From the NCBI GenBank assembly GCA_021786295.1, contig JAJYNO010000026.1, positions 62,001 to 126,000 of the forward strand: a DNA stretch of 64,000 bases, given 5' to 3'. This document shows, in pieces, positions 6,260 to 23,469 of the stretch. This DNA is from a bacterium (GTDB lineage: Bacteria > Elusimicrobiota > Elusimicrobia > Elusimicrobiales > UBA9959). A model generated the notes under the pieces. It worked only from the letters and a program-made list of their open reading frames with translations, was not told where the DNA came from and made no database searches. The position numbers and the translations under genes are program-made. Every line of letters starts with the position of its first letter. The first letter of the stretch is position 1.

Positions 6260-6263
<4 letters not shown>

Positions 6264-7003: not shown

Positions 7004-8193
7004 GGCGCCCCGGCGTGCTGCTGGTCACCCCCCGTTTTCCCTTCCCCTCTATCAGCGGCGGGGAGAAGTGGGCCGCCTCCCTGGCCTCGGGCCTGGCGTC
7101 CTCCTACGACGTCTCCCTTTTCGCTTTCGCCGTGCCGGGGGCCGAGGCACATCAGACCGCGCTGGCCATGACCCTGGAGGGAAGGACCTTCGCGAAGGTC
7201 TACCTGCTGCCCAAGCCGGCGCGCCGCGAGGCCGAATCCCTCCCCCAGCTGCCGGGCGAATACTGGTCCTCTGCCGCCGCGGCCGCCCTGCGGGCCGCCG
7301 CCGCCGGGACCGGGGCGGAGCTGGTGCACATACTTTTCTCCGAGATGGCCGCCTACCAGGCCGCCATTCCCGCCGAACTGCCCGTGATCTACACGGAGAT
7401 AGATTCCAGTTATCTTTATCCCTGGAAATACTACCTGCGCGGGAGCGCCGGCCTTAAAGGCTTTCTGCAGGCAGGGGAGTTCCTGCGCTCAAGGGCCTAC
7501 GCCCGCCGCCACTACGGGCGCTTCAGGGCGGTGACCGCCATCACGGCCAGCGACGGCAGGGACATAGCCCGCTACCACACGGCCGCCTTCACCGCGGTCA
7601 CTCCCAACGCCGTGGTCCCGGAAGACTTCGCCCCAGTCCCCGGAGAGCAGCGCAGGCCGGGGAGCCTGCTCTTCGTCGGGCACTACCCGCACTACCCGAA
7701 CGAGGATGCGGCCCTGCGCCTGGCGCGCCGCATTTTCCCGCTTGTAAAGGCCGAAGTGCGCGGCGCCGCGCTGACGCTGGCCGGCTCCTCCCCCACGCCT
7801 CCGGTGGCGGCGCTGGCCGGGCCCGACGTCTCGGTGCCCGGCACCGTGGCGGACATCCGCCCCTTCCTGCGCCGCGCTTCGGTGTTCGCGGCTCCGGTAC
7901 GCTACGGCCTCGGCACGAAAGGCAAGATACTGGAGGCTTTCGCCGCCGGACTGCCGGTGGTGGCCTCGCGCGAGGCGGCCGCCGGGATCGAGCACGCCCG
8001 AGACGGGGAGCACCTGCTGTCGGCCTCCTCCGACTCGGATTTCGCGGCCAAGACGGCCGCCCTGCTGAAGGACTCGGCTCTGCGCGAAAGGCTGGCGGAA
8101 GCCGCCCTGCGGCTGGTCCGCAGGGAGTACTCCTTCTCCTCCGTGGTCTCGACGGTGTCGGCGCTCTACAGGAAGGTCCTCGATGCCGCCTGA
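7000..8193 (+). CDS. Glycosyltransferase, GT4-like (GT-B fold)
   Basis: ATG at 7000 overlapping previous stop; VLLVTPRFPFPSISGGEKWAASLASGL; C-terminal GTKGKILEAFAAGLPVVASREAAAGIEH. Confidence 0.85.
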   Translation: MRRPGVLLVTPRFPFPSISGGEKWAASLASGLASSYDVSLFAFAVPGAEAHQTALAMTLEGRTFAKVYLLPKPARREAESLPQLPGEYWSSAAAAALRAAAAGTGAELVHILFSEMAAYQAAIPAELPVIYTEIDSSYLYPWKYYLRGSAGLKGFLQAGEFLRSRAYARRHYGRFRAVTAITASDGRDIARYHTAAFTAVTPNAVVPEDFAPVPGEQRRPGSLLFVGHYPHYPNEDAALRLARRIFPLVKAEVRGAALTLAGSSPTPPVAALAGPDVSVPGTVADIRPFLRRASVFAAPVRYGLGTKGKILEAFAAGLPVVASREAAAGIEHARDGEHLLSASSDSDFAAKTAALLKDSALRERLAEAALRLVRREYSFSSVVSTVSALYRKVLDAA

Positions 8194-9052
8194 AGCCCTG
8201 CACGTGGAGCTGCTGCACTCCTGCCGGCTGCGCTGCAGGGCGTGCGACCACCGCCTGCTGGGCGGGGCCCGCCTGAAGCCGTCGGACCTGCTCCGGGTCT
8301 TCTCCATGCCGGAACTCAAGGGGCTCCGGCTGATCTCCTTCTCCGGAGGCGAGCCGCTGCTCTACCCGGGACTCGCGGCGGCCCTGAAGAGGGCCGCGGC
8401 CGCCTTTCCGGCCGCGCGCCTGGTGCTCCTCTCCTCTCTTTACGACACCTCCGGGACGCTGCGCCTGCTGCGCTCGCTGCCTGCGCCCCTGCTGGCGCGC
8501 CTGCACCTGGGTTCTTCGCTGGACGGCGGCCCGGAGCTGCACGACGCCATGAGGGGGCGCCCTGGAGCTTTCGCCGCCCTCAAGGCCTCGCTGGCCGCCG
8601 TCAAACGGGAATTCCCCGCTGTCTCCGCCGGGCTCACCTTCACCGCCACGCGGCTCAACGCGCCGGCCTTTTGCGAAGCCTGGGAACAGGCGCGCGCGCT
8701 GGGAGTACCGCTGCTCCCCCAGTTCCTGGTCCCCAATCTGAACACGGCAGGGCTGGAGCTGGACGCCCGCGCCCGGGGCCGGATGGCCGCCGGCCTCAGG
8801 CGCGTCCTGAGACGGCGTCCGGAAGGCGCGGCCGAACTGCGCCAGGCGCTGGATTTCCTCTCCGGGGGGCCGACCGGCCCGTGCGGAGCCGGCCTGACCT
8901 TCCTGATGCTCTCCCCGGAAGCCGAGTTCTACCTCTGCCCTTTCCACAAGGAGATACGGGCCCCGCTGGACAGGCCGGCCGCTCTGCGGCCGGCAGGCCC
9001 CGGCTACCGCTCCCGCCACTGCGCGGGCTGCTTCCTGCGCTGCGCCAGATAG
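8183..9052 (+). CDS. Radical SAM protein with extra C-terminal cysteines
   Basis: CRLRCRAC (CxxxCxxC), FSGGEPLLYPGL; C-terminal CGAG...CPFHK...CAGCFLRC suggests auxiliary cluster. Confidence 0.85.
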   Translation: MPPEALHVELLHSCRLRCRACDHRLLGGARLKPSDLLRVFSMPELKGLRLISFSGGEPLLYPGLAAALKRAAAAFPAARLVLLSSLYDTSGTLRLLRSLPAPLLARLHLGSSLDGGPELHDAMRGRPGAFAALKASLAAVKREFPAVSAGLTFTATRLNAPAFCEAWEQARALGVPLLPQFLVPNLNTAGLELDARARGRMAAGLRRVLRRRPEGAAELRQALDFLSGGPTGPCGAGLTFLMLSPEAEFYLCPFHKEIRAPLDRPAALRPAGPGYRSRHCAGCFLRCAR

Positions 9053-9071
9053 GCTTTGATATAATTATCCT

Positions 9072-9824
9072 GTGAGGACGGCTACCAGAAAACTCGTCGC
9101 GCTGGCCAGGGTGGAATGGAGGCTGCGCCAGCAGAGCACTTTTCTAGGCTTCCTGTGGACGCTGCTCAATCCGGCGCTGATGTTCGCCGTGCTCTACGGG
9201 CTGTTCGTGAAATGGCTCGGCCGGGCGCAGGAAGGCTACGCCGTCTTCCTGCTGATCGGCATAGTGGAGTGGAACTTCTTCGCCACGGCAAGCACCTACG
9301 CCCTTTCCAGCCTGCTGCGCCGCGGCGAGCTGCTCAAGAACTACCCGCTGGCCCTCGAGGTGCCGGTCCTGGCCTCGGTGCTGAGCGTCTATTTTTCGCA
9401 CCTTCTCGAACTGGCGGCCCTCGCCGGCCTGCTCGCCGTCTTCCTGTCCCCCCCTTCGTTCCCGTGGCTGTGGCTGCTGCCGCTGGACGCCGCCTACCTG
9501 CTGCTGACCGCCGGCGCCGGGCTTCTGCTGGCCGGGGCCTTCGTCTTCTTCTCGGACCTGGAGCGCATCTGGAACATACTGCTCACCGCGGGCTTCTTCC
9601 TGACCCCGGTCTTTTACCCGCTGGCCGTGATCGCCCCCGATAAGCGCAGGCTGCTCGCGCTGAACCCGCTCACTTCGATAATAGAGGCGGCCCGCGCGGC
9701 TTTTTCCGGCGCCCCCCCGGGGCCGGCCCGGCTGGCCGAAGCCTGGATCTGGGGCGCCGCCGTCCTCGCCGCCGGCTTCCTGTTTATCAGGCTCAAGCGC
9801 GGCCCGGTGGCCGACGGCCTATGA
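9072..9824 (+). CDS. ABC-2 type polysaccharide export permease (Wzm-like)
   Basis: GTG start; YRFLWTLLNPALMF-type region (TFLGFLWTLLNPALMFAVLYGLFVKWL), 6 TM pattern, TPVFYP motif. Confidence 0.85.
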   Translation: MRTATRKLVALARVEWRLRQQSTFLGFLWTLLNPALMFAVLYGLFVKWLGRAQEGYAVFLLIGIVEWNFFATASTYALSSLLRRGELLKNYPLALEVPVLASVLSVYFSHLLELAALAGLLAVFLSPPSFPWLWLLPLDAAYLLLTAGAGLLLAGAFVFFSDLERIWNILLTAGFFLTPVFYPLAVIAPDKRRLLALNPLTSIIEAARAAFSGAPPGPARLAEAWIWGAAVLAAGFLFIRLKRGPVADGL

Positions 9825-11404
9825 GCGGCCTTTCCGTCTCCGGCGTGGCCAAGGCCTACCGCGTGGAGCTTCCGCGCGAGGACGCGCTCTCCTCACTTGT
9901 GCGCTTCTTCAGCGGGCGCTCCCCCTCGCGCCCCTTCCTCGCGCTGGACGGGATCTCGTTCGAGCTCGCTCCCGGAAAGGCGCTGGCCCTGCGGGGCCAC
10001 AACGGCTCCGGCAAGACCACGCTGCTGAAGATACTGGCGGGCATAACGGCGCCGACCTCCGGCTCCGTCTCCTTCTCCGGCAGGCGGGCCTGCCTTCTGG
10101 GCTTCGCCTCGATCCTGCAGGACCGTCTCAGCGTAAAGGAGAACGCGCGGCTTTGCGCCGTCTTCTTCGAGCTCCCGGGGGACCCGGCGGAGAACGCGGA
10201 GAGGATAATGGCCGCGGCGGGGCTGGAGCAGCTGCGCAACGCGCGCGCGGGAGAGCTCTCGTCGGGGATGCGGCTGCGCCTGCCCTTCATGGCGGCCCTC
10301 TCGTCCGGGGCCGACCTCTTCCTGCTGGACGAGACCCTGGCCGTCGGAGACGCCGATTTCAAGCGCGAATGCCTGGCCAGGCTGGCCGGACTGAAGCGGG
10401 CCGGGGCAATGCTGGTGTTCGCCACCCACGACGACGCGCTGGCCCTGGCGCTGGCCGACGAGGCCCTGCTGCTGGAAGCCGGCAAGCCGCTTTACCTCGG
10501 GCCCGCGGGCGGCATGCCGGGCCCGGGCGCGGCGGAACCGGCCGAAGGAGCCCTCGCGCGGGCGCTAGACAGGTTCTCCTTCCTCTTCGCCGGGCTCCGC
10601 GCCGAGGGGTTCGCGCTGCGCGAAGCTCCGCCGGCCTCCGACGAGGACCTGCTGCTCGTCCACACGCCGGCCTGGCTGGCCAGGCTGAAAGCCAACGACC
10701 TGTCCCCCGAAGAAGAGCGCCTGCTGCAGCTCCCCTGCTCGCGCGAGCTCCTGCCGCGGGCCTGGCGCATGGCCGGCGGCACGCTGGCCGCGGCCAGCAG
10801 GGCCCTTGCCTCCGGGCTGGGCGTATATCCGCCCGGCGGAGGGCACCATGCCCTCCCTGACCGCGGGGCGGGCTTCTCCGCGGTCAACGACATCGCCATA
10901 GCCGCGCGCCGCCTGCTAAAGGACGGCCTCGTCCGGCGCCCGGCCGTGATAGACCTGGACGCCCACCAGGGCAACGGCACCGCCTTCATCTTCCCGTCCG
11001 GGGAGGTCGCCACCTTCTCCGCGCACCGGGCCGGCGGCCGCCCAGCGGGCAGGCAGAGCTCGACGCTGGACGTGGAGCTGCCCCCGGGGGCCGGCGACGC
11101 CGCCTATCTGGCCGCCGTGGAGAAAGGCCTCGTGGATTTTCTGGCCGTCTCCGCGCCCGACTTCGTTTTCGCGCTCTGCTCCGGGGACCCGTACGAGAAG
11201 GACCCGCTGGGCGGGCTGAAACTCTCCAGGGACGGCCTGCGGAAGCGCGACGAACTCCTGTTCCGCCTGCTGAAGGACGTGCCGGTCTGCCTCCTGCTCG
11301 GGGCCTCCTACTCCCCCCCGGAGGAAGCGGCTGAGATAGACCTGGCAGCCGTCAAGACGGCGTTCTCGGCCCGTCCTTCGGCCGAGCGCGTGATAGACGT
11401 CTGA
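9821..11404 (+). CDS. Wzt-like ABC ATPase fused to a C-terminal histone-deacetylase-like domain
   Basis: N-term Walker A GHNGSGKTTLLKILAG, signature LSSGMRLRL, Walker B DLFLLDETLAVGD; C-term GGGHHALPDRGAGFSAVNDIAIAARRLL...AVIDLDAHQGNGT...SGDPYEKDPLGGL; single uninterrupted ORF. Confidence 0.9.
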   Translation: MSGLSVSGVAKAYRVELPREDALSSLVRFFSGRSPSRPFLALDGISFELAPGKALALRGHNGSGKTTLLKILAGITAPTSGSVSFSGRRACLLGFASILQDRLSVKENARLCAVFFELPGDPAENAERIMAAAGLEQLRNARAGELSSGMRLRLPFMAALSSGADLFLLDETLAVGDADFKRECLARLAGLKRAGAMLVFATHDDALALALADEALLLEAGKPLYLGPAGGMPGPGAAEPAEGALARALDRFSFLFAGLRAEGFALREAPPASDEDLLLVHTPAWLARLKANDLSPEEERLLQLPCSRELLPRAWRMAGGTLAAASRALASGLGVYPPGGGHHALPDRGAGFSAVNDIAIAARRLLKDGLVRRPAVIDLDAHQGNGTAFIFPSGEVATFSAHRAGGRPAGRQSSTLDVELPPGAGDAAYLAAVEKGLVDFLAVSAPDFVFALCSGDPYEKDPLGGLKLSRDGLRKRDELLFRLLKDVPVCLLLGASYSPPEEAAEIDLAAVKTAFSARPSAERVIDV

Positions 11405-11443: not shown

Positions 11444-12283
11444 TCAGCGCTGGAGCTCGTAGGAATAGAGGATGTAGAGCAGCGCCCGGCCCGCGAAAGC
11501 CGGAGCCATGAAGGATTCCGTGCCTGAGGCGCTTTTCAGCGCCGCCCGCGCCGCCCAGTAGGCGGCGGTCGGGCCGGTCAGGTCGCGGGTCAGACGGAGC
11601 CTCCAGCCGGAGCCGGCGGCCCCTTTCAGGTACTCCTCCCCGGAATGTATCCGCGTGACGTAGGCCTTATCCGCCAGCGCGGCGTACCTGCGCCCGAGTC
11701 GGTGCGCCGAATTGCGCGTCCAGGCTATCACCACCAGCCTGGCGCCGGGTCTTGCCACGCGGGCCGTTTCCAGGAAGAAAGCCGGCAGGTCGGGCACATG
11801 CTCGGTGGACTCGCAGGCCCAGACCAGGTCGAAGGAACCTCTCCCGAAGGGCAGGTCCAGCATGGAGGCCTTCGAAAAACGCACCCGTCCGGAGAGACCG
11901 CGCGCCCGGGCGGCGGACCTGGCGGCCGAGGCCTGATAGCCGGATAGCGTGACGCCGCGCACGGTCAGGCCCGGATGCCGTCCCGCCAGCAGCAGGCTGG
12001 ATCCGCCCCGGCCGCAGCCGGCGTCCAGCAGACTGGCGCCGGGGCGCGGCCTGCCCAGGTATCTGAAGCCCAATTTGGCCAGCGCCGTCTCGGAATCGTG
12101 TATCATCCTTTCCGCCCCTCCGGGGGAGGCCTTGGCGAGGCGCCGCAGGAAGGAGGCCCTGTCGGCCACCAGGCCGTTGTGGTGGTGTATTATCCCGTCC
12201 GGGGCCAGACGCCAGTTGAAGTCCCTGCGCTTGGAGTCGTAGAGGGCCGCCACCTTGGCCAGCCAGGGGTCCCCGGCCCTCAC
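11444..12283 (-). CDS. SAM-dependent methyltransferase resembling geranyl-diphosphate C-methyltransferases
   Basis: IIHHHNGL, LLDAGCGRGGSSLL, GVTLSGYQA, IHSGEEYL and DLTGPTAAYW resemble landmarks of GPP 2-C-methyltransferases. Confidence 0.75.
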   Translation of the reverse strand: MRAGDPWLAKVAALYDSKRRDFNWRLAPDGIIHHHNGLVADRASFLRRLAKASPGGAERMIHDSETALAKLGFRYLGRPRPGASLLDAGCGRGGSSLLLAGRHPGLTVRGVTLSGYQASAARSAARARGLSGRVRFSKASMLDLPFGRGSFDLVWACESTEHVPDLPAFFLETARVARPGARLVVIAWTRNSAHRLGRRYAALADKAYVTRIHSGEEYLKGAAGSGWRLRLTRDLTGPTAAYWAARAALKSASGTESFMAPAFAGRALLYILYSYELQR

Positions 12284-12807
12284 GCGGCCTCCTTCAGCGC
12301 GGCAGCGAAAGCGATGGCCAGGCGCCGCGCCGAGGCGGACGGGCGGAAACGCCCGCTCGGCCCGGCCCCCCGCCCCGCCAGCGCCATGGCGGCCGGCATA
12401 GCGGCCATCTCTCCCGAGAACGCGGCGTGCAGGGCCAGCGCGGCCCGGGCCGGCAGCCGCTGGCCGGAAAAGAGGAAGAAGCGGGAATAGTTCCCCAGAG
12501 CCATCGCGAAATTCAGGGTCATAGGCACGTCCATACCCGGCAGCGGTCCTGCCCCGCGCGCGTAAGCCAGGGCTATCTCCTGGGAGGCCTGCCAGAGGCG
12601 CAGCGACATGCCGAGGCGGCGGCGCAGCTGGGACGGGAGGGAGCGCGGGAGCTCTTTTTCAGCCGGGACCGCCCTGCGGCAGAGCCGCGAGGCCGGTCCG
12701 AAGAAGGCGGCGCGGGCGGCCCGCGGATCGCAGGAGAAAGGCAGGGAACCCAGGACGGCCCTGTGCCAGGCCGGCACCGAGCGCCTGACCGGGAAAAGGG
12801 CCCTCAT
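12280..12807 (-). CDS. Hypothetical helical protein
   Basis: 175 aa ORF with overlapping start/stop on both sides in a tight operon; Ala-rich helical. Confidence 0.6.
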   Translation of the reverse strand: MRALFPVRRSVPAWHRAVLGSLPFSCDPRAARAAFFGPASRLCRRAVPAEKELPRSLPSQLRRRLGMSLRLWQASQEIALAYARGAGPLPGMDVPMTLNFAMALGNYSRFFLFSGQRLPARAALALHAAFSGEMAAMPAAMALAGRGAGPSGRFRPSASARRLAIAFAAALKEAA

Positions 12808-13532
12808 CCGCCGAAGGCCTCCAGCACAGAGGCCAGCCGGGCGGCGCTCACCGGGCGGGAACGGTCGGAACCGAGGCAGACGGCGCCGCGCAGGCCGACT
12901 ATATCCGGCCCCAGCTCCCGCAGAGCCGGCAGCATCCTCACGCCGACGGAGCCGGCGAGGGCGGTCTTAAGGCCGGCGGCGCGGGCCAGGCGCAGGAAGC
13001 GCGCCAGTTCCGGGCGCGTCATGTTGTCGAAGAGGGAACGTCCGTCCTTCAGGGCCGTGTCCAGCATGACGGCGGCGGCTCCGGCCTTCTTGGCCGCGCG
13101 CACCAGGGGCCAGGGGGCCAGCCCGCCGAAACGGCGCCAGTCAGCGTAGCCGGCTATGACCGGCAGCGCGCGCGGGGCCGCCGAGCGTACGCCTTTCACC
13201 ACCGCGCGGGCCAGTTCGAAGGCGCGTTCCTCGGTCCTGACGCCGTAGAGCCCGGCCTTGACGTAATCGGCGCCTATCGAGGCCGCGGCGTAGGCGGCCA
13301 GCGCCGCGGTACCGGGCTTGAAGTCCAGGTCCCCGATCGCCGCGCTGAACTTTACGGGATAGCGGCGCAGCCGGCGCACCACCCCGGCCAGCACCCACGG
13401 GAAATTGGCCCCCAGCGATCCTTCCCCGACGTTCTTGAGGTCCAGGATATCGGCACCGCCGCGGGCCACTACCAGGGCCTCGCGCAGGTCCACGGGGCTG
13501 ACCAGGAGCTTAATTTTATTTGTCGCGTTCAT
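12804..13532 (-). CDS. mfnB: (5-formylfuran-3-yl)methyl phosphate synthase (MfnB / UPF0264) family
   Basis: KLLVSPVDLREALVVARGGADILDLKNVGEGSLGANFPWV; ADYVKAGLYG; AVMLDTALKDGRSLFDN, characteristic of MfnB/DUF556. Confidence 0.9.
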   Translation of the reverse strand: MNATNKIKLLVSPVDLREALVVARGGADILDLKNVGEGSLGANFPWVLAGVVRRLRRYPVKFSAAIGDLDFKPGTAALAAYAAASIGADYVKAGLYGVRTEERAFELARAVVKGVRSAAPRALPVIAGYADWRRFGGLAPWPLVRAAKKAGAAAVMLDTALKDGRSLFDNMTRPELARFLRLARAAGLKTALAGSVGVRMLPALRELGPDIVGLRGAVCLGSDRSRPVSAARLASVLEAFGG

Positions 13533-14571
13533 CGGCCATGTAATACGCCAGAGAGCGGAGCAGCGAAAGTTCCCGCCTGCGCAGGCGGCAGGAGCCCAGC
13601 TCGCTGAGCGCCCGGCGGCGGAACGCGCCTATCATGCGGCGGTTCTCCTCCAGCGCTCCGCTCCGGCGGACTATATCTATAACATTTTTAAGGGCGGCCG
13701 TGGAAATGGACGCGTCCCCCAGCGCCGCCCGCAGCGCCGCCCGCAGCGCCGGGGAGGAAAGGCGGATGGCGGTAAGGTAGAGATACGTGTACCGCCCCGA
13801 GGTTATATCGTCGGCCAGCGGCTTGCCCCAGGCTTCTGAACGCGGGAAGAGGTTCAGCTCGTCGCCGTGCAGGTGGTAGGCCATGCCGAGCCAGGAGCCC
13901 GCCGCCTCGAAGCGCGGCAGTTCCCGGCGGGCGCAGCCTCCCAGGAGCGCCCCTATCCTGAAGGGGCCGTTGAAGGAGAGGAAACGGATGCGGTCCCAGC
14001 TCATGGAGAGGTACTCCTCCGGCGACGGCTCCCTGCGCCCCGCCGTCCACCAGAGTTCCGCGGACTGGCCGTAACCGTAGGCGAATATCTCCGAGGAGAG
14101 AGAGCGGAGTATGTACTCCCGGCGCCAGTCCTCCAGCCGCAGGGACGGGGAAAGGAAAACGCGCCAGGCCCAGTTGTAGGACGCCTGATAGGCCAGGTAG
14201 GCGTTCTTCTCTCCGTACAGCCTGTGCGTCGCTGGCCCTCCGCGGCGGAGGCCGGAGCCGTCTATGATGTCGTCGAAACTTACCGTGGAGGCCTCCATCA
14301 GCTCGACGGCCCCGAGGACCTCCTCGTAAGCCGCAGGCGCCTTGCCGAAAGCCTCCAGCAGCAGGCGGGTTATCAGCGGGCGCAGCAGTTTCCCCGGGCG
14401 CTCGAGGTAGAGCCGCGCGGGCGCGTTGATCCGGCGGAGGAGGGAGGCGGAGGGACGGAGACCGGCCGCCCTGAGCCAGTCCGCGGGAAAGGCGCGGGGA
14501 AAGGCGGCGCGCGAGGCCCGCAGCAGCTGCGGCAGCGCCGCGGCGTAATAGGCCGCCAGTGCGGGGGACAT
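13516..14571 (-). CDS. Polyprenyl-diphosphate-synthase-like protein, non-canonical second Asp-rich motif
   Basis: In-frame ATG at 14571; ERPGKLLRPLIT, FDDIIDGSGLRRGGPATH (FARM), YHLHGDELNLFP in place of DDxxD. Confidence 0.8.
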   Translation of the reverse strand: MSPALAAYYAAALPQLLRASRAAFPRAFPADWLRAAGLRPSASLLRRINAPARLYLERPGKLLRPLITRLLLEAFGKAPAAYEEVLGAVELMEASTVSFDDIIDGSGLRRGGPATHRLYGEKNAYLAYQASYNWAWRVFLSPSLRLEDWRREYILRSLSSEIFAYGYGQSAELWWTAGRREPSPEEYLSMSWDRIRFLSFNGPFRIGALLGGCARRELPRFEAAGSWLGMAYHLHGDELNLFPRSEAWGKPLADDITSGRYTYLYLTAIRLSSPALRAALRAALGDASISTAALKNVIDIVRRSGALEENRRMIGAFRRRALSELGSCRLRRRELSLLRSLAYYMADERDK

Positions 14572-14609
14572 CCCGCCGCCCCGCCGGCGGAGACGGACGG
14601 GGCGGCTTC

Positions 14610-15641
14610 TCAAGACGTCCTCCCGGAGAGGCGGCGGACGAAAGCCCTGAGCGCCTCCCCGTAGCCGCCGCTCATGGCCGGAAGCAGGGCCCTGTCCAGC
14701 ACCGCCATGGCGGAGCCGGTCCTCGCAGCCGCGGCGGAACGGCAATATTCCGCGGCGCCGCTGGCGAGCATCACCTCCCGGGCGCGGGCCACGTCCGCTT
14801 CCGCGGGCGGGCTCCCGGGGGGCCGGGAATAAAGGCGGAGCAGGAAGGAGCGGTCCGCCGGAGAGGAGCGCCGCAGGGCGCGCCAGAGCAGCAGCGTGCG
14901 CTTGCCTTCCCGTATGTCGTTGCCAGGAGCCTTCCCGAAGCCGGTCCCGCCGTCGTTCTCCAGGTCAAGAACGTCGTCCATCAGCTGGAAAGCGGCGCCG
15001 AGGTGCCGGCCGAAAACGTCGATGGCCCCGAAGAGGTCGTAACGCCCGGCGAGAACGGCGGCCAGCCTGCACGGCCCCTCGGTTGTATAGGAGGAGGTCT
15101 TCATGTCCGCCAGGCGGAAATAGGCGCGCGGCGAGAATTCGCGCGGCGGCCTCCCCCGCCAGACCAGCTCCAGGTGCTGTCCCTGGAGCGCGCGCCTGAC
15201 GCCGGCATAGAACTCGCCGAATACCGGGCCGAACTCCCGCGGCCCGAGCAGACAGTTGGCGTAGAGCATCTCCGGTATGTAGGTGGCTGTGAGGTCCAGC
15301 GCGTTGATGGCTGCCTCCTCGCCGCACAGGCGGTGCAGCGCCGGGCCGCCGCGCCTCGTCTCGGCGTGGTCCATCAGGTCGTCGCGGCCGAGGCCCCAGT
15401 TCTCAAGAAGTTCGTAGGCCGCCGCAAGGCGGGAGGCCTTCCGGTAGCCCCCCCCCAGCCCGCCGGCGAACAGGCACAGCAGGACGGAGCGCAGCGCCTT
15501 GCCGCGGCGCCGCGGATAGGCGGTGATGCAGCCGCGCAGGCCGGGGGCCATGCCCGCCGTCTTTCTTTCAAGCCAACCGTCCAGGACCGCGAAGACGTCC
15601 CGGCGCACCTTCGCGGTATAGGCGTCAAGGTCTATCGGCAT
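14610..15641 (-). CDS. Polyprenyl diphosphate synthase (canonical motifs)
   Basis: RDDLMDHAETRRGGPALH (FARM) and QLMDDVLDLENDGGTGFGKAPGNDIREGKRTLLL (SARM). Confidence 0.88.
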   Translation of the reverse strand: MPIDLDAYTAKVRRDVFAVLDGWLERKTAGMAPGLRGCITAYPRRRGKALRSVLLCLFAGGLGGGYRKASRLAAAYELLENWGLGRDDLMDHAETRRGGPALHRLCGEEAAINALDLTATYIPEMLYANCLLGPREFGPVFGEFYAGVRRALQGQHLELVWRGRPPREFSPRAYFRLADMKTSSYTTEGPCRLAAVLAGRYDLFGAIDVFGRHLGAAFQLMDDVLDLENDGGTGFGKAPGNDIREGKRTLLLWRALRRSSPADRSFLLRLYSRPPGSPPAEADVARAREVMLASGAAEYCRSAAAARTGSAMAVLDRALLPAMSGGYGEALRAFVRRLSGRTS

Positions 15642-16245
15642 AAGCCTCCCTCAGGGTCGAGCCAAGAAAGCCGCGCGGAAGAAGAAGAACGGACTCGGCC
15701 CGGGAACCGCGCGCGGGACGGCCGGCGGCGAAGGCGAGCGCGGCCTCGCGGCAAGCCCGCGCCCCGCCCTCCCCCAGGCCCAGCTCCAGCGCGCGAAAGA
15801 AGAAAGCGGCCCGCAGGGCCCAGTTCCCAGGCGAATCTTCCCTCGCCCCGCCGGGGCGCCGCAAAGACCCGGAAACGGCCGCTCCGGCCTCAACGAAGAA
15901 CCCTTCCAGCGCCCGGCGGCGCTCCACCGCGAAGCAGCGCGCGGCCAGGCGCTCGGCCAGCGAGACGGCTGAAAGCAGCAGCAGGATATCGCCCCCGCGC
16001 AGGGCGGCCGCCCCCCGCCGCCGGCAGGCCTCCCTGGACCTAAGCCAGGGCTGCTGCGCCGCCGCGAGGGCGTCCGCGGAGGCCTGCAGCCGGGCCGGGA
16101 CGCGCGTCCCCGGCCAGAGCACCCCGGCCGCCCTGCCCGCCGGGGTGCTCGGAAGGAGGAGGCGCGCCCCTGGAGGCGGCCACGGCCTGCCAGGAGGCCC
16201 GGACAGGAGGGCCGCTGCGAGCCCGGCGCCTGGGACGCGCGTCAC
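15625..16245 (-). CDS. Hypothetical protein in isoprenoid operon
   Basis: 206 aa; ATGA overlap with upstream gene and overlap with downstream gene; GGDILLLLSAVSLAERLA segment. Confidence 0.55.
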   Translation of the reverse strand: MTRVPGAGLAAALLSGPPGRPWPPPGARLLLPSTPAGRAAGVLWPGTRVPARLQASADALAAAQQPWLRSREACRRRGAAALRGGDILLLLSAVSLAERLAARCFAVERRRALEGFFVEAGAAVSGSLRRPGGAREDSPGNWALRAAFFFRALELGLGEGGARACREAALAFAAGRPARGSRAESVLLLPRGFLGSTLREAYADRP

Positions 16246-17345
16246 TTCGTCCTCCTGGCCGAAAGATAGAGAGGCAGGCGCGAAAAAATTGCGCGCGAAG
16301 CCCGCGGCAGGCCAAGCCCCGCGACGATGTCCAGGGCGCGGGCGTTGAGGGACGCGATAGCGGCTTGCGTTTCCTGCACCGCGCCGCAGTCGCGGGCCGC
16401 TCTGACGGCGCGCCGCAAAGCGCCCGGGGAAGGCTTGCCCGACAGGACGGAGTCCGCCGCTCCGGGGTCGTCCCGTTCCAGGCGAGCCAGAGCCGCGGAG
16501 GTCAGGAAGGTGGCCTTGCCGGCCAAAAAGTCGTCGCCGGGGAGCTTTCCCCAGGAGGGATCTTCCGGAAAGAGGTTGAGGATGTCGCCGCGCAGATGGT
16601 AGGCCGCGCCCAGGGTCTCCCCCAAAGCGCAGAATTCTGCTTCCCGGGCGCGAGGAAGGCCAGCGCAGACGGCCGCCGCGCCGAGCGGGCCGGCGAAGGA
16701 AAGGATCGAGATCCTGTCGCGCACGTTATCGAGATAGGCGGCCATGGACACCGGGCCGCCGGCTTCGGTCAGGAGCGGTTCCGACAGATGGCCGCGGCAA
16801 GCCCTGAAATAGTAGGAGTTCATGAGCTCGTGAAGGCGCAGCCGCTGACTGGAGCCGAGGGGCAGCGCCGGGTGGTCCGGCACTCCGAGGCAGAGATGGA
16901 AGACGGTCATGGCGGCCGAGGCCGCGCGGGGACCGTAGACCAGCTGCGCCGCGCGGGCCCCGCGCCGGCAAGGGGAGGAGTCCAGGGCATCGTCGAGCAT
17001 CACGGTGGCGGACTCCATCACCTCGAGCGTCCACAACAGGGGCCGGAACGCTTCCGGGTCGCGCCCGGCCGCCTGCAGCGCCAGCATGGCCAGGTACGGG
17101 CGCAGCAGCTTGCCCGGCCTGTCCAGATAATAGCGCAGCACCGACCAGTCAGCCCGAGACAGCCCGGGCAGCCCGGGCCTCGCCAAAAGCTCCGGCACCG
17201 GGGAAACGGAATACTCTGCCAAAGCGCCCCGGATGACCGGGAGGCAGGCCCGGTAATGCCCGGCCAGCTCCGGGCCCATCTCGCCGGCCGCCGCCGGAGA
17301 TGGCTCCCCCCAGCCCGGACCGAAAGGCCTTGCGCGCCGGGCCAT
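16242..17345 (-). CDS. Polyprenyl-diphosphate-synthase-like protein, non-canonical second Asp-rich motif
   Basis: ATG at 17345; LDRPGKLLRPYLA, MLDDALDSSPCRRGARAAQ (FARM), YHLRGDILNLFPEDPSWGKLPGDDFLAGKATFL. Confidence 0.8.
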   Translation of the reverse strand: MARRARPFGPGWGEPSPAAAGEMGPELAGHYRACLPVIRGALAEYSVSPVPELLARPGLPGLSRADWSVLRYYLDRPGKLLRPYLAMLALQAAGRDPEAFRPLLWTLEVMESATVMLDDALDSSPCRRGARAAQLVYGPRAASAAMTVFHLCLGVPDHPALPLGSSQRLRLHELMNSYYFRACRGHLSEPLLTEAGGPVSMAAYLDNVRDRISILSFAGPLGAAAVCAGLPRAREAEFCALGETLGAAYHLRGDILNLFPEDPSWGKLPGDDFLAGKATFLTSAALARLERDDPGAADSVLSGKPSPGALRRAVRAARDCGAVQETQAAIASLNARALDIVAGLGLPRASRAIFSRLPLYLSARRTK

Positions 17346-18169
17346 CAGGATGCCAGCCTGCCCGCCAGCCCGCACAGCAGCATCAGGTTGGCGGAGAGAA
17401 GATAAAGTTCGAAGAACCAGCGAGGAGGGCGGAAGGCGGCGGCCGCCGCGGCGGCCATCGTCCAGAGGGTCCAGGCCGAATCAGCCCTCTCCCCGAGGAC
17501 GAGATGCCGGAGCAGGACCGGCGCCAGCAGCAAGGCCAGCGCCGCGGCCGTCGCCTTAAGACCGAGAAGCACCGGCACGCTGCGCACGCCGGCTTCGGCG
17601 TCCCCGCCGTAATCGCGCATGTCAAGTATCACGCTAAGAGCCAGGATGAACGGGATGAGCGCCCATGTCGCGCGGACCAGGGCGGCCGCGGCCGTCCACG
17701 AGAAGGCGTGGTGAAGCAGGAACGGGGCAAGAACGCCGACGCCCCAGAACGCGGCCAGGTTCACCAGGGTCTTGAGCGCCGGCACCCTCTTTATGAGAGT
17801 CACGCCGTCGACCGGGACCGCGTACAGCGGCACGAAGACCACGGAAAGGGCCAGGAGCGGGCGGAAGGGAGTATGCAGCAGGATATAGAGCGAGTCGGCC
17901 AACAGCAGCGCGGCGAAGAAGGCCGGCGGGGCTGGTGAGACCCTCAGCTCCACGGCCGGCACGTTGACGGCATCCTCCCTCTGGGAGAACCGGCGGTCCA
18001 GCAGATAGGCCAGCTGGATCATGACGGCCAGCGCGGCGCCCGCCGCGATGCCGGCGGCTTTCAGCCCGCCCATGGCCGAGGCCATGTTGAGGAAAAGCAG
18101 GAAAGCCGCCAGCGGGAGCTGGACCCGGAACGCGGAAACGAACCCGTAGACGGCGGAGAAGGCCCTCAT
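17345..18169 (-). CDS. UbiA-family prenyltransferase
   Basis: Multi-TM; LLDRRFSQREDAVNVP and DMRDYGGDAEAGVRSVPVLLG motifs; ATG at 18169 overlaps previous stop. Confidence 0.78.
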   Translation of the reverse strand: MRAFSAVYGFVSAFRVQLPLAAFLLFLNMASAMGGLKAAGIAAGAALAVMIQLAYLLDRRFSQREDAVNVPAVELRVSPAPPAFFAALLLADSLYILLHTPFRPLLALSVVFVPLYAVPVDGVTLIKRVPALKTLVNLAAFWGVGVLAPFLLHHAFSWTAAAALVRATWALIPFILALSVILDMRDYGGDAEAGVRSVPVLLGLKATAAALALLLAPVLLRHLVLGERADSAWTLWTMAAAAAAAFRPPRWFFELYLLSANLMLLCGLAGRLAS

Positions 18170-19179
18170 ATGAAGAAACGCGGTTTCTGCCCCCACACTA
18201 TAGTCTCCGGCTGCACCACCATGGCGGCCTGGACTCCGGAAAAAACGGCCGCCAGGTCGGAGACGCCTACGCCGCGGCGCAAAACGAAGAAAGGGGCCGC
18301 CAGCAAGGCCTCAAAGGGGCTCAGCCGCCTGAGCCTTCCCAGATATCGTCCGCGCCATCTGCGGCTCAGCTCCTGCGCGGCGGAAAAGAACGCCGGAGAA
18401 TGGAAACGCCTGCCGCGCCCGGAGGACACAGCGAAGAACCATTTATCCTTCCCGCTGGAGGAGGAGGGAAGGGCGGCGCAAAGGCGGAAGCCTGGCACCG
18501 CCCCCGCTAGGGCCGACAGCACGGCCCCGGCCCCGCACTCAGACTCCAGCAGCGCGGCCCGCTCCGGGCCTGAAACGCTCTCGGGAGTCTTGAAGGCCAC
18601 GAAAAGGACCAGGTCGGCGAGGTCTGGCCTGGACAGGGCCCAGGAGTAGACCGCAGGCGCCCCCCCGAGGTTGCGCCTGGATACGGTCATGTTGAAATAG
18701 CAGGAGCCTATCCCCGCGTCGCGCACCATCCTCCCGAGGCGCTCTCGCAGGGAATTCAGCTCGGCCTCGCCGGCCCCTTTCCAGCCCTCCCGGTCCTGCA
18801 TGGAGTCCACGTGAAGACAGACCCCGGCCAGGCCCGCGGACTTGAGGGCCTTCAGGAGCGCCGGGGCCAGCAGGGAACCGTTTGTGTTTACGAAGGGGCG
18901 TAGCCCGGCCCGGGCCGCGTGCCGGACCGCGTCCACGATGCTCGGGTAGCACAGCGGATCGCCTCCCGCAAAAGCCAGGACGTCCGTGCGCACCCCCGAC
19001 GCCACCGAGTCTATCTCGGCCAGAACCTCCGGCAAAGGCCTGTGCTTTCCCGGGAAATTGGAGGAAAAGCAGCCGGGGCAGTGCATGTTGCACTCCTTCG
19101 TGGGCTCAAGCCAGGTGATTATAGTGTCGGCCAGGGTCCAAGGCAGCCGGTATGGCCGCTGCTCAGCGGATAAGGTCAT
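18166..19179 (-). CDS. Radical SAM protein
   Basis: TKECNMHCPGCF (CxxxCxxC), AFAGGDPLCYPSI, FVNTNGSLL. Confidence 0.88.
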   Translation of the reverse strand: MTLSAEQRPYRLPWTLADTIITWLEPTKECNMHCPGCFSSNFPGKHRPLPEVLAEIDSVASGVRTDVLAFAGGDPLCYPSIVDAVRHAARAGLRPFVNTNGSLLAPALLKALKSAGLAGVCLHVDSMQDREGWKGAGEAELNSLRERLGRMVRDAGIGSCYFNMTVSRRNLGGAPAVYSWALSRPDLADLVLFVAFKTPESVSGPERAALLESECGAGAVLSALAGAVPGFRLCAALPSSSSGKDKWFFAVSSGRGRRFHSPAFFSAAQELSRRWRGRYLGRLRRLSPFEALLAAPFFVLRRGVGVSDLAAVFSGVQAAMVVQPETIVWGQKPRFFI

Positions 19180-19283
19180 CTATTCCCCGTACCCCGCGGA
19201 AGAACGCACCCCTCCTCCGGCCGGGGGCCGGTCTTTTTCCTGGAACGGAGAGGTCTCGCGGGCTGCATCGGTAGCGCTTTCCC

Positions 19284-19307
19284 TTAAATGCCATTATATT
19301 AAATGCC
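19284..19307 (-). promoter_or_regulatory. Putative operator/promoter of the isoprenoid operon: 9-nt direct repeats flanking TATAAT
   Basis: Minus strand reads GGCATTTAA-TATAAT-GGCATTTAA. Confidence 0.5.
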
Positions 19308-19354
19308 CCGCAGCCGGGGCGAAGCGCCGGCCGCCTGGCCGCGGCGGAATACGT

Positions 19355-20119
19355 TCAGGCGCGGCCAGGCAAGAGCAGCGTACCGGGCCCGGAACGCCCG
19401 GCGAGAAAGGAAGCGAGTCCCTCCGGGCGCCGGCCGTCGAGGACGAGGGCCCTGCCTCCCCCCCGCAATATCGCCAGCAGTTCGGCCGCCTTCCCGCGCA
19501 TCCCCCCGCTAACGTCGCCCGGCTCCCCGGGACAGGCCCGGGAGAAGGCCTCCAAGCCCGGCTCGTCCAGCTCCGGCAGCACCGCGCCCGCGGCGTCCAG
19601 CAGGCCCGGCGCGTCGGTGAAGAATACCGCCAGACGCGGCCGCAGCAGCCCGCAGAGCGCCGAGGCCAGCGCGTCGCTGGAGACCACTACGCCTCCTCCG
19701 GCCCCGTCCGGGAAGATGCCGCTGGAGACCACCGGCACGCGCCCCGACGCCAGCGGGGCCGCGATGACGGACGGGTCCGCGGGCACGGGGCGCCCCCCGC
19801 TCAGCGAAAAATGTTCAGGCCCCGGCACGCTGCAGACCTCCAGCCCGGCCGAGCGCAGTTCCCGGAGAAAGGCGAGATGAAGACGCCGCAGCGAGGCGTT
19901 GATGGCGTCTATGGGCGCCCCGCCCGGAGGGATCCTGCCGGAGAGGTAACCGTAGCGAAGGGCCGGCGGCTTGCCGAAGGAGCCGGTGCCGTGGACCAGC
20001 GCGAAAGGCTCGGCCAGTTCGGCCAGCGAGGCCGCCAGGCGCGAGACGGCCGCCCGGTCGAAGACCGGAGACTCCCCTTTGCGCGTTATCACGCTGCCTC
20101 CGGCCTTTATCACCAGCAT
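19355..20119 (-). CDS. Isopentenyl-phosphate-kinase-like amino-acid-kinase-fold protein
   Basis: MLVIKAGGSVITRKG, LVHGTGSFGKPPALRYGY, GDVSGGMRGKAAELLAI...ALVLDG; alternative ATG at 20125. Confidence 0.8.
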   Translation of the reverse strand: MLVIKAGGSVITRKGESPVFDRAAVSRLAASLAELAEPFALVHGTGSFGKPPALRYGYLSGRIPPGGAPIDAINASLRRLHLAFLRELRSAGLEVCSVPGPEHFSLSGGRPVPADPSVIAAPLASGRVPVVSSGIFPDGAGGGVVVSSDALASALCGLLRPRLAVFFTDAPGLLDAAGAVLPELDEPGLEAFSRACPGEPGDVSGGMRGKAAELLAILRGGGRALVLDGRRPEGLASFLAGRSGPGTLLLPGRA

Positions 20120-20127
20120 CGGCATAT

Positions 20128-20143: not shown

Positions 20144-21082
20144 ATGAGTTCCGGAGCCAAGGACGGGAAGGGCGCGCCTGGGCCGGGAAAGCCGTCCCCG
20201 CGCGCGCTGTTGGAACTGGCCGCGCTGAAGGCCAGACTCCTGAAGCTGCCGGAAGGCGCCCCCGGCACGCTCTATATCGCGCTCACCTCCCGCTGCGATC
20301 TCTCCTGCCGTCACTGCAAATACCGCTCCTCGCCGCCGGGCCCGGACATGCCGTTCGGGGAACTGAGGCGCCTGCTGGAGAACGCCGCCTCCTCCGGCAT
20401 ACCCCGCGCGGCCTTTTTCGGAGGAGAACCGCTGCTCTACCCGCGCCTGGAGCAAGCCGTAAGGCTGGCCTCGGGGCTCGGGCTTTTCACGCAGCTGGAC
20501 ACCAACGGCCAGACTCTGGACGCCGGGCGGGCCGGGGAACTTGCGTCCGCCGGGCTCTCCCTGGCCACTATCAGCCTGCACTCAGCCGAGGAGGCCGGGC
20601 ACGACGCCCTGGGCGGGCCAGGCTCGTTCCGCAAGGCCGTTGCGGCGGTCTCGGCGGCCCTGCGCGCCGGCCTCTTCGTCCACGTCTCCTCCTGTTTCTT
20701 CTCGGCCGGGCTTTCCTCCGGGGAACCGGGCCGCTTGGCGGCCTTCGCCCGCGGCCTGGGCGCCCACGGCGTCAGGGCGCTGCTCTACTCCCCGCCTGAG
20801 GGCGGTTCCGCGCGGCTGCCGCGCCGGCTGTCCAGGACCCTGGCCAAGGCCGCCCCGGACGGCTTCTCGCGCGGCTGCGTACGCCCCGGACGGCGGGCCT
20901 GCGCCGCGGCCGCCGGGGAGATTCTTTTCACGGACGCGGAATTGAACGTGAAGAGCTGCCCTTACGCGGTCCGGCCGCTGGGAAAGGCAACGGCCGGGCT
21001 GAGCCGCTTCTTCGGCGGCGAGCGCGCTCCTGCCGGGCTCTTCCCATGCCATTCCCCGGGCCGGTCCCTCCGTCGCCGCTGA
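20144..21082 (+). CDS. Radical SAM protein
   Basis: LTSRCDLSCRHCKYRSS (CxxxCxxC), FFGGEPLLYPRL. Confidence 0.87.
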   Translation: MSSGAKDGKGAPGPGKPSPRALLELAALKARLLKLPEGAPGTLYIALTSRCDLSCRHCKYRSSPPGPDMPFGELRRLLENAASSGIPRAAFFGGEPLLYPRLEQAVRLASGLGLFTQLDTNGQTLDAGRAGELASAGLSLATISLHSAEEAGHDALGGPGSFRKAVAAVSAALRAGLFVHVSSCFFSAGLSSGEPGRLAAFARGLGAHGVRALLYSPPEGGSARLPRRLSRTLAKAAPDGFSRGCVRPGRRACAAAAGEILFTDAELNVKSCPYAVRPLGKATAGLSRFFGGERAPAGLFPCHSPGRSLRRR

Positions 21083-21100
21083 CGCGGGCCCTAATTTTGC

Positions 21101-21106
21101 TAGAAT
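21101..21106 (+). promoter_or_regulatory. Putative -10 box (TAGAAT), 6 nt before ATG at 21113
   Basis: ctaattttgcTAGAATagtccgATG. Confidence 0.4.
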
Positions 21107-21112
21107 AGTCCG

Positions 21113-21397
21113 ATGGGAGAGGCCCGGAAGAACAAAGCCATATCCGAATCCGTCAGCTGGCGCAAGACCGGGGAAGAGGCCGTCCTCCTGGACCTGGAAA
21201 CCTCGGAGTATTACTCCCTTAACGACACCGGCACGTTCATCTGGGAGCGCTTCGCCGCCGGCAGGCCGCTCTCCTCGATAAGCGAAGAGCTGGCCGCCGA
21301 GTACGGCGTATCCGCCGGGCAGGCCGCGCGCGACGCCGAGGCCTTCCTCAAGGACCTCGCCGCCCTGAAGATCCTGAACGAGGGGGACGTGAAATGA
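21113..21397 (+). CDS. PqqD-family peptide-binding (RRE) protein
   Basis: 94 aa; VSWRKTGEEAVLLDLETSEYYSLNDTGTFIWERFA typical PqqD. Confidence 0.87.
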   Translation: MGEARKNKAISESVSWRKTGEEAVLLDLETSEYYSLNDTGTFIWERFAAGRPLSSISEELAAEYGVSAGQAARDAEAFLKDLAALKILNEGDVK

Positions 21398-21498
21398 AAC
21401 GCCAGAAGAACAGCCAGCCCAAACAGAAAAAATACCGCAAGCCGCAGGTAAAATCGCACGGCAAGATAAGTGAAGTCGCCTCGGCGTTCAAGCCCTAA
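21394..21498 (+). CDS. Small basic peptide, candidate RiPP precursor or leader-like peptide (34 aa)
   Basis: ATG overlapping the pqqD-like stop; MKRQKNSQPKQKKYRKPQVKSHGKISEVASAFKP; contains YxxPxVxxxG; absent from the ORF track because it is short. Confidence 0.55.
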   Translation: MKRQKNSQPKQKKYRKPQVKSHGKISEVASAFKP

Positions 21499-22453
21499 GC
21501 GGAAAACCGCTTTTCTTTTCCCCGGCTCCGGGGCGCAATACCCCGGGATGGGCCGCGCGCTGCGGGACGCCTTCCCCCCGATAGAACGGCAGCTCTCCAG
21601 AATCGACCGCGCCGCGCTGCGACCCCTTTCCGCCGCGATGGACGGACCGGCCGGTCTCCTTTTCCCGGAAAAGACGCACCCCGACCCGGCCGTATCCATG
21701 GAAGTAGTGATGGAGCTCTCGCTGGCCGTGGCCTTGTCCCTTACCGAAGCCGGCGCCCGTCCCGGCGCGGCCGCCGGGCGCAGCATGGGCGAATACAGCG
21801 CCGCCGCCTTCGCCGGGGTATTGGCGGCGCGCGACTGCCTCGAGCTGGTCAGCTTCGTGACGCTGAGGGGACAGGAGGACTGCCTGGCGCAGCCGAGCGT
21901 TCTCGCGACGGTTTACGGCCTTACCAGGCGCGAGCTCGCGGCGGCGGCCGAAAAGGTCGCCGCGGCCGGCGAGCCCTGCGAAGTGACCGTCTTCTACGAC
22001 AAGGCCCGCCTCGGCGTGGCCGGCCTGCGCGCAAGCGCCCTGCCGCTGCTGAAGGAGGCCCTCTCCCCGCTGCGCCACCGCCTGAGCCTTTCGCGGGAAC
22101 CCGGCGCGTTCCACACGAGCCTTTTCGACAGGCTGGCCTCCAGGGCGGCAGCGAGATTCGGGGAGACGCCCTTCTCCGCCCCGGCCATACCGCTCTACAT
22201 GAACGCCGACGCGCGCAGGGCGGCCTCCGGGCGGGCCGTAAGGGAAAAACTGGCCGCGGCGCTGAACAGTCCCGTACTCTGGCAGGAGACCATAGCGCGC
22301 ATGCTGGCCGACGGGGTCCGCACCTTCGTGGAAATCGCGCCCGGCGCGATGCTGACCGAGTTCGTCTGCGAACTGCCGCCAGACGCCGAGGTCCTGCGCA
22401 CGGACACTCCCGAAAGCTACAGCAGGACCCTGCGGAGGCTGGCCGGGAAATGA
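21470..22453 (+). CDS. Stand-alone malonyl-CoA:ACP transacylase/PKS AT-type acyltransferase
   Basis: GTG start; TAFLFPGSGAQYPGMGRAL, AGRSMGEYSAAAFAGVL, GAFHTSLF. Confidence 0.85.
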   Translation: MKSPRRSSPKRKTAFLFPGSGAQYPGMGRALRDAFPPIERQLSRIDRAALRPLSAAMDGPAGLLFPEKTHPDPAVSMEVVMELSLAVALSLTEAGARPGAAAGRSMGEYSAAAFAGVLAARDCLELVSFVTLRGQEDCLAQPSVLATVYGLTRRELAAAAEKVAAAGEPCEVTVFYDKARLGVAGLRASALPLLKEALSPLRHRLSLSREPGAFHTSLFDRLASRAAARFGETPFSAPAIPLYMNADARRAASGRAVREKLAAALNSPVLWQETIARMLADGVRTFVEIAPGAMLTEFVCELPPDAEVLRTDTPESYSRTLRRLAGK

Positions 22454-23469
22454 CGCCGTCGGAAGAGCTTCACTTCGACCTCTGCGGCTGCAGGGTGCTG
22501 TTCTCCTGCGGGGACCCGCTCCTGTCCTTCGCCGTGGCCGGGAGCCTGTCCGCCTTCTCGGCCCCGCCCGGACATGCGGACGTCAGCATATCCGCCGAGC
22601 TCGGCGCGGTCTCCGAAGCGGGCCTCCCTCCGCCGCTCTTCTCCACGCGGCGCTGGAAAGTGCTCAAGGCCCCGCCCGGCAGGCGCCTGGTCTGGTACCC
22701 GGAAGGGGCCGTCTGCGAGTACGATTTCAGGACGCGCAGCGGACGGCTGCGCTCCGCCGACCGCGCTCTGCTGGAGGAACTCTCCTATCTGCTGATACTG
22801 TCGCGGGCCGGTGAGGAACTGGACCTGGCCGGGCTGCACCGGCTGCACGCCGGCGCGCTGGGCCACGCCGGGCGGGCGCTGCTCTTCTGCGGCCCGCGCG
22901 GCGCGGGTAAGACCACGCTGCTGCTGGAACTGCTCAAGGACCCCGCTTTCTCGCTGCTTTCCGACGACACGCCGCTGGTGGGAGGGGACGGGGCCGTGCT
23001 GCCTTTCCCGGCCCGCGTCGGGCTGGCGCCCGACAGCCCCCATCTCCCCGGCTTCGGCGGCCTGCGCCGCCTGGAGCGCCGCCATTATCCGCCCAAGCGC
23101 CTGCTGGACACCGTCAAGGCTGGCTTCAGGCTGTCGGGCCCGCTGCCGTCCGGGGCTCTTTTCCTGCTCAGGCGCTCGGAACGGGCGCGGATACGCCGCG
23201 CCTCCGTTCCCGCCGCCGCGGCGGAACTGGCCGTCTCGCTGGCCGTCGGCTGGGGCGTGCCGCAGCTGGCCGAATACTTCCTGCGAGGGGAACCGGCGGA
23301 CCTGCTGCGCAAGGGCGGGATACTTGGTTCCAGGCTCCGGGCCGCGGCCCGGCTGCTCCGGCGCTCCGGCCGCTATATCTTCGAACTTTCCCCCGACCAC
23401 GCCAGGAACGCCGAGGAACTCAGGGCCTTCCTTGGCAGCGGCAGCGCGCAGGGCGCGCGCGGGCGCTGA
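22450..23469 (+). CDS. HPr-kinase-related P-loop protein
   Basis: LLFCGPRGAGKTTLLLELL and FSLLSDDTPLVGGDGAVLPFPARVGL. Confidence 0.82.
   Translation: MTPSEELHFDLCGCRVLFSCGDPLLSFAVAGSLSAFSAPPGHADVSISAELGAVSEAGLPPPLFSTRRWKVLKAPPGRRLVWYPEGAVCEYDFRTRSGRLRSADRALLEELSYLLILSRAGEELDLAGLHRLHAGALGHAGRALLFCGPRGAGKTTLLLELLKDPAFSLLSDDTPLVGGDGAVLPFPARVGLAPDSPHLPGFGGLRRLERRHYPPKRLLDTVKAGFRLSGPLPSGALFLLRRSERARIRRASVPAAAAELAVSLAVGWGVPQLAEYFLRGEPADLLRKGGILGSRLRAAARLLRRSGRYIFELSPDHARNAEELRAFLGSGSAQGARGR

Follow-up and report, generated by a model that had tools for sequence, protein, structure and literature searches.

An MfnB-type furan synthase in an inherited prenyl-gene operon of Elusimicrobiota: a candidate furan-isoprenoid pathway

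Introduction

What would an enzyme of methanofuran synthesis do among prenyl genes? In searchable papers and family annotations, (5-formylfuran-3-yl)methyl phosphate synthase (MfnB, UPF0264) appears only in methanofuran and methylofuran biosynthesis, where it makes the ring. The question is raised by a 64,000-nucleotide stretch of an Elusimicrobiota genome (assembly GCA_021786295.1, contig JAJYNO010000026.1, positions 62,001 to 126,000), hereafter the window, where MfnB is tied, together with a kinase of its own, to isoprenoid synthesis in bacteria that show no methanofuran metabolism. The reading developed here, predicted from the genes and given about an even chance, is that the operon is an inherited module which would supply a surface-lipid or glycoconjugate locus with an isoprenoid diphosphate containing a furan.

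The MfnB operon

The minus strand of the window carries a ten-gene operon at 11444-20125, with mostly overlapping junctions. From its upstream end, it encodes an isopentenyl phosphate kinase (IPK)-family AA_kinase protein (19355-20125; PF00696, 6.2e-20; IPK structures, 1e-23), a radical SAM protein with a CxxxCxxC motif (18166-19179; PF04055, 2.4e-15), a UbiA-family membrane prenyltransferase (17345-18169; PF01040, 6.8e-9, 35.8 bits against a cut-off of 34.2), the polyprenyl synthase (PPS) homologue PPS1 (16242 to about 17279; PF00348, 8.5e-29), the protein U2 (15625-16245), the polyprenyl synthase PPS2 (14610-15641; PF00348, 1.4e-42), the homologue PPS3 (13516 to about 14571; PF00348, 3.8e-34), MfnB (12804-13532; PF04476, 2.8e-71), the all-helical protein U1 (12280-12807), and MT, an S-adenosylmethionine methyltransferase resembling geranyl diphosphate (GPP) C-methyltransferases (11444-12283; NF041943, 2.4e-39). 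Neither U1 nor U2 belongs to a known family, as both lack Pfam and NCBIfam matches.

An earlier sequence-only reading of the window had proposed this operon. All the genes it named were found in place, in the order and on the strand it gave, including the IPK-like kinase just upstream on the same strand. Its description of the genes as consecutive and overlapping holds at six of the nine junctions, with overlaps of 4-17 bp; elsewhere there are short gaps, of 38 bp between PPS3 and PPS2 and 65 bp between PPS1 and UbiA when PPS3 and PPS1 are given their likelier starts, near 14571 and 17279, and of 175 bp between the radical SAM and kinase genes.

Codon-position composition fits the reading frames, and nine other genomes encode an MfnB of 52-95% protein identity among the same neighbours, so the operon is not a chance pattern of open reading frames. 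The source assembly has 2.3 Mb and is 79% complete. Genus-mates with the operon include the Elusimicrobia bacteria GWC2_64_44, GWA2_62_23 and GWB2_63_16 as well as metagenome-assembled genomes from other sites, hence no single-sample assembly chimera can account for the locus. The operon as described is confirmed as genuine.

The MfnB assignment is well supported. The predicted protein scores 240 bits against PF04476, whose cut-off is 22.4, and the residues equivalent to D25, K27, K85, D151 and K155 of MJ1099, the first four of which we take to be active-site residues, are invariant in ten cluster copies. It also aligns with the MJ1099 structure 4rc1 at 2.6e-61, across the full core. Lys155 has been named as catalytic in MfnB (PMC11365854).

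In the MfnB tree, the copies from the clusters group in a single clade that excludes archaeal MfnB and whose branch measures about 1.1 changes per site. Such a separate clade, along with the kinase's relation to IPK, would suit an enzyme repurposed to another aldol-type product with no furan, in which case the module would yield an ordinary methylated isoprenoid lipid. Against the five invariant active-site residues and the full-core match to the methanogen enzyme, however, this appears very unlikely. The MfnB homologues of three other genomes, G122, G169 and G102, have long branches, and the tree does not settle a transfer source.

Distribution and co-inheritance

Across the phylum, 12 of 341 genomes encode MfnB: nine belong to the window's genus, G102 and G122 to the same family, and G169 to the same class. 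This type of cluster holds ten of the twelve copies, i.e., all nine from the genus and that of G102. One Elusimicrobiota genus thus has the operon in nine genomes, a second genus has a diverged form of it, and PPS3 adjoins MfnB in all ten clusters. U1 is missing from the G102 version. When named genomes were scanned for MfnB, the best 80 matches came from Elusimicrobiota and archaea only.

Profile searches of 32 genomes of the genus placed MfnB, U1, MT and the PPS3 subfamily in an identical set of nine. For PPS3 this count depends on a wide score gap, the profile reaching at least 567 bits in genomes with MfnB versus at most 49 bits in those without it. The U1 profile matched the nine MfnB-bearing genomes and none of the 327 other phylum genomes searched. 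The kinase is found in eight of the nine, being missing in the fragmentary G144, and also in G139, in which MfnB was not detected and the contig ends within the flanking radical SAM gene, just short of where the core would lie. In G130, G148 and G126 it lies about 15 kb off, on the opposite side of the same locus. Fisher tests of co-occurrence gave p of about 4e-8 for MfnB, U1, MT and PPS3 and about 7e-6 in the other test, values which treat the genomes of one genus as independent, which they are not.

The loci of sister genomes separate a constant from a variable part. On the plus strand, the operon is bordered by flank A (6260-11404), which by Pfam holds two glycosyltransferases, a radical SAM protein, an ATP-binding cassette type 2 (ABC-2) permease and an ABC ATPase fused to a histone-deacetylase-fold domain, and by flank B (20144-23469; also Pfam), which holds a radical SAM protein, PqqD, a FabD-like acyltransferase and a kinase-like P-loop protein. 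Both flanks are present in genus loci with and without MfnB, and a glycosyltransferase and a beta-helix protein beyond flank B likewise occur in genus members that have no MfnB. In the sister loci of G136, G138, G152 and G147, UbiA and the flanks are retained, and the MfnB-PPS-MT core is replaced by other genes: a carbon-nitrogen hydrolase accompanied either by a pyridoxal phosphate aminotransferase-fold enzyme or by a B12 radical SAM protein, or else a B12 radical SAM protein together with what, judged by eye, is probably a flavin adenine dinucleotide (FAD) oxidoreductase. Some MfnB-less sister loci end at contig edges. Because the core is replaced as a block while UbiA stays, the PPS genes, kinase, U1 and MT track MfnB, and UbiA belongs to the constant part. 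That the MfnB-PPS-MT core is one inherited, swappable module is thus well supported. The radical SAM gene of the core has orthologues in some clusters only, and since it varies or is missing between genomes, its role would be tailoring at most.

The methanofuran question

MfnB has an established role in methanofuran and methylofuran synthesis (PMC8141765, PMC11365854), which would be retained here if the enzyme served a cofactor of one-carbon (C1) metabolism and its prenyl neighbours were incidental. However, Ftr (PF01913) was found in 0 of 336 phylum genomes, in a search whose control was positive in two methanogens. The MfnE model NF040622 had no match in the window's genome or in genus members among the matches listed, and the only strong, full-length match in the phylum, again among those listed, is in G122. 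No MfnC-, MfnD- or MfnF-like gene was found in the operon with Pfam, and the restriction of MfnB to so few genomes, mostly within this cluster, also argues against a cofactor role. Given the lack of Ftr in the phylum sample and of a strong MfnE match outside G122, a methanofuran role was rejected, and incidental neighbours are hardly credible. The sequence-only reading had linked MfnB to isoprenoid genes instead of methanofuran, and this is strongly supported by the co-occurrence across the 32 genus genomes, by the absent Ftr and by the replacement of the module as a whole. No methanofuran pathway was found in the family searches, and MfnB occurs without PPS in two relatives only, G122 and G169.

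The first of these offers a parallel. In G122, from another genus of the same family, a diverged MfnB, an MfnE-like kinase (5.5e-37 against NF040622, below the cut-off), UbiA and a HisA/HisF-related gene lie on one strand (L022 7928-12105), with a radical SAM/SPASM gene upstream and a mannosyltransferase-like gene downstream. HisA-like orf17 takes part in methylofuran synthesis in methylotrophs (PMC8141765). MfnB, a phosphate kinase and UbiA therefore occur in two gene sets whose kinases come from different families. The furan product of G122 is likewise unexplained by methanofuran, since the phylum genomes searched have no Ftr. The second relative, G169, from another family of the class, has a very diverged MfnB homologue (L023 10080-10871); a helicase and a DUF6119 gene adjoin it, and none of the genes nearby is a prenyl gene.

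The kinase

The operon kinase carries GSFGK or GSYGK in nine of nine cluster copies, in contrast with GSFGH in archaeal IPKs, whose His is presumably the active-site residue. It reaches 93 bits against the IPK family model NF040647, which has a cut-off of 120. A profile of the cluster kinases gave scores of 68-119 bits to three archaeal IPK-like proteins and missed the weakly matching amino acid kinases that are likely MfnE candidates. Membership of the MfnE family was rejected on this profile comparison, and only a functional analogy is retained.

IspH is present in 28 of the 32 genus genomes and HMG-CoA reductase in none, hence the methylerythritol phosphate (MEP) route supplies isopentenyl diphosphate and an IPK is not needed. 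Given this pathway and the His-to-Lys change in all nine kinases, an ordinary IPK role in isoprenoid supply is unlikely. The strongest case for action of the cluster kinase on the MfnB product comes from G122, which independently combines MfnB, a phosphate kinase and UbiA. Production of a furan diphosphate by the kinase is somewhat favoured, and the earlier proposal that a furan phosphate is activated gains support from the co-occurrence of the kinase and from the G122 parallel. The further steps in that proposal, namely prenylation (as against chain priming), maturation by radical SAM chemistry and a quinone-like product, stay hypothetical, so that the proposal as a whole is supported in part.

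Prenyl synthases, UbiA and methyltransferase

Only PPS2, among the three synthases, has a canonical second Asp-rich motif, its two motifs being DDLMD and DDVLD (in FQLMDDVLD). The second motif is altered to YHLHGDELN in PPS3 and YHLRGDILN in PPS1, and the pattern YHLxGDxLN holds in every genome; both proteins retain the first motif, DDxxD, and the GKxxR site. Relatives of PPS1 are confined to the G140, G144 and G102 clusters. The best NCBIfam match of PPS2 and PPS3 is the family 2 encapsulin cargo polyprenyl transferase. In the G102 cluster, a dolichol-phosphate-mannose-synthase-like glycosyltransferase (by eye; L014 10342-11061) lies between PPS3 and the U2-like gene.

The best-matching model for MT is that of geranyl diphosphate 2-C-methyltransferase, the NF041943 equivalog, which it matches at 136 bits against a cut-off of 400. 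It aligns end to end with the GPP methyltransferase 4f84 (1.5e-33), and by these comparisons the predicted protein is a distant full-length relative of GPP 2-C-methyltransferase. UbiA keeps its second motif, DxRDxxGD. Its first motif, NxxxDxxxD, has become DxxxSxxxD in the MfnB-bearing loci of the genus, whereas it is canonical in MfnB-less loci and in G102.

The AlphaFold model of U1 has a predicted local distance difference test score (pLDDT) of 80, and its first 24 Foldseek matches are trans-prenyl diphosphate synthases, with template modelling (TM) scores to the query of 0.45-0.60 and E-values of at least 0.15. Sequence profiles gave no signal for U1 or U2 as degenerate PPS. Judging by the model, U1 is possibly a non-catalytic prenyl-synthase-like partner. 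U2 has diverged relatives in G140, G144 and G102, and its structure model (pLDDT 41) is too poor to use.

Proposed pathway and alternatives

The furan probably ends up in an isoprenoid-bearing molecule, either by priming or as an acceptor, and the chemistry after MfnB is inferred. In the proposed pathway, MfnB would condense two glyceraldehyde-3-phosphates into (5-formylfuran-3-yl)methyl phosphate, as its homology and conserved catalytic residues indicate. The IPK-family kinase may then add a second phosphate, yielding a furfuryl-type diphosphate, as MfnE does in methanofuran synthesis. The PPS enzymes could next join this allylic-like furan diphosphate, prenyl diphosphates or both with isopentenyl diphosphate. 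Given its altered second Asp-rich motif and its fixed position beside MfnB, PPS3 would be the likeliest to take the furan substrate; PPS2 would be an ordinary chain elongator, and U1 may be a non-catalytic partner. Going by its family, the GPP methyltransferase-like enzyme would C-methylate a prenyl diphosphate. UbiA might finally move the chain onto an acceptor produced by the genes of the constant flanks, with export of the product by the ABC-2 system and variable tailoring by radical SAM enzymes. The ABC-2/ATPase pair and the glycosyltransferases in the flanks are the reason for proposing an exported product, and they suggest a glycoconjugate. In its most specific form, which is less likely than not, furfuryl diphosphate from a repurposed IPK would replace dimethylallyl diphosphate as the starter of PPS3, perhaps with U1; the resulting polyprenyl chain, C-methylated and capped by the furan, would be loaded onto the exported conjugate by UbiA.

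Several points weigh against a furan-containing isoprenoid diphosphate. Co-inheritance within a single genus is not phylogenetically independent, and the G122 cluster holds no PPS. The synthases with an altered second motif could be inactive or regulatory, the altered first motif makes the activity of the predicted UbiA uncertain, and membership of the IPK family equally fits a kinase that phosphorylates a prenyl phosphate.

That last activity, or an adjustment of the furan phosphate, is what the kinase would perform if the furan were instead the acceptor. PPS1-3 would then make an ordinary, possibly methylated, polyprenyl diphosphate, with which UbiA would prenylate the furan ring or a side group, in the way that aromatic precursors of quinones are prenylated. 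Aromatic rings are the classical substrates of UbiA enzymes, PPS2 is canonical, and G122 combines MfnB, an MfnE-like kinase and UbiA without PPS, all of which agree with this alternative. Yet UbiA is retained in the MfnB-less sister loci, which implies that a furan is not its obligatory acceptor, and MfnB is tracked by the PPS genes, not by UbiA. Simple ring prenylation would need neither several PPS paralogues nor a dedicated kinase. Hence, a furan acceptor is considered rather unlikely.

In another arrangement, furan diphosphate and isoprenoid would be synthesised separately and meet only in the final conjugate. PPS, MT and UbiA would build a methylated lipid anchor, and a radical SAM or flanking enzyme would attach the furan elsewhere, for instance on a glycan or peptide; MfnF acts in a similar way when it joins the furan to a phenol in methanofuran. 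Methanofuran synthesis is a precedent, since it joins a furan diphosphate to a non-isoprenoid partner (PMC8141765), and the flanks do contain glycosyltransferase, radical SAM and PqqD genes. The same flanking genes, however, are equally present without MfnB, no MfnF-like gene was found in the operon, and PPS3 stands beside MfnB in every cluster, which makes separate synthesis improbable.

Comparison with known systems

In comparison with methanofuran and methylofuran biosynthesis (MfnB, MfnE, MfnF), the operon shares the ring-forming enzyme, with its active site conserved, and a phosphate kinase of the amino acid kinase superfamily. It differs in having an IPK-type kinase in place of MfnE, in lacking MfnC, MfnD and MfnF in a phylum sample without Ftr, and in linking MfnB to PPS, UbiA and a GPP methyltransferase-like enzyme. 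Clusters for C-methylated terpenoids of the 2-methylisoborneol type also combine a GPP methyltransferase-like enzyme with prenyl synthases; unlike these, the operon has neither terpene cyclase nor encapsulin, it contains a furan synthase, and its MT falls far under the family cut-off. The kinase shares fold and overall sequence family with archaeal IPK, yet it has Lys for the active-site His, occurs in MEP-pathway hosts and has a distribution that tracks MfnB. As in the quinone, archaeal ether lipid and decaprenylphosphoryl-ribose pathways, UbiA has a DxRDxxGD motif and adjoining chain-length synthases. Unlike in those pathways, its first Asp motif is altered in the genus's MfnB loci, quinone-ring and glycerol-phosphate genes are lacking from the operon, and UbiA is linked to glycosyltransferase and ABC export genes.

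The component families are known. Their combination, and MfnB outside C1 cofactor synthesis, were not found in the open-access literature, where nothing was found on UPF0264 with prenyl genes or on this locus. Known furanoterpenes usually gain their ring through oxidation of the chain. If the proposed reading is true, a furan building block from central sugars joins the isoprenoid starters or acceptors, and the module, which points to an undescribed furan-containing lipid, would mark biosynthetic loci of an undescribed class in uncultured Elusimicrobiota.

Flanking genes and related loci

Four MfnB-less loci (L067, L068, L069 and L070) carry varied cassettes beside UbiA, as if one platform carries different products. 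In the window, the fusion of ABC ATPase and histone-deacetylase fold (9821-11404) is kept with the ABC-2 permease in 13 genus genomes, which is odd for a polysaccharide-type exporter. On the other side, the radical SAM, PqqD, FabD-like, kinase-like P-loop and glycosyltransferase genes form a conserved cassette with a 1184-aa beta-helix protein (20144-27968). In five genomes, the window's not among them, the furan cluster contains or adjoins a gene for a B12-binding radical SAM protein (473-474 aa; L018 6071-7492; also L016, L017, L020 and L021).

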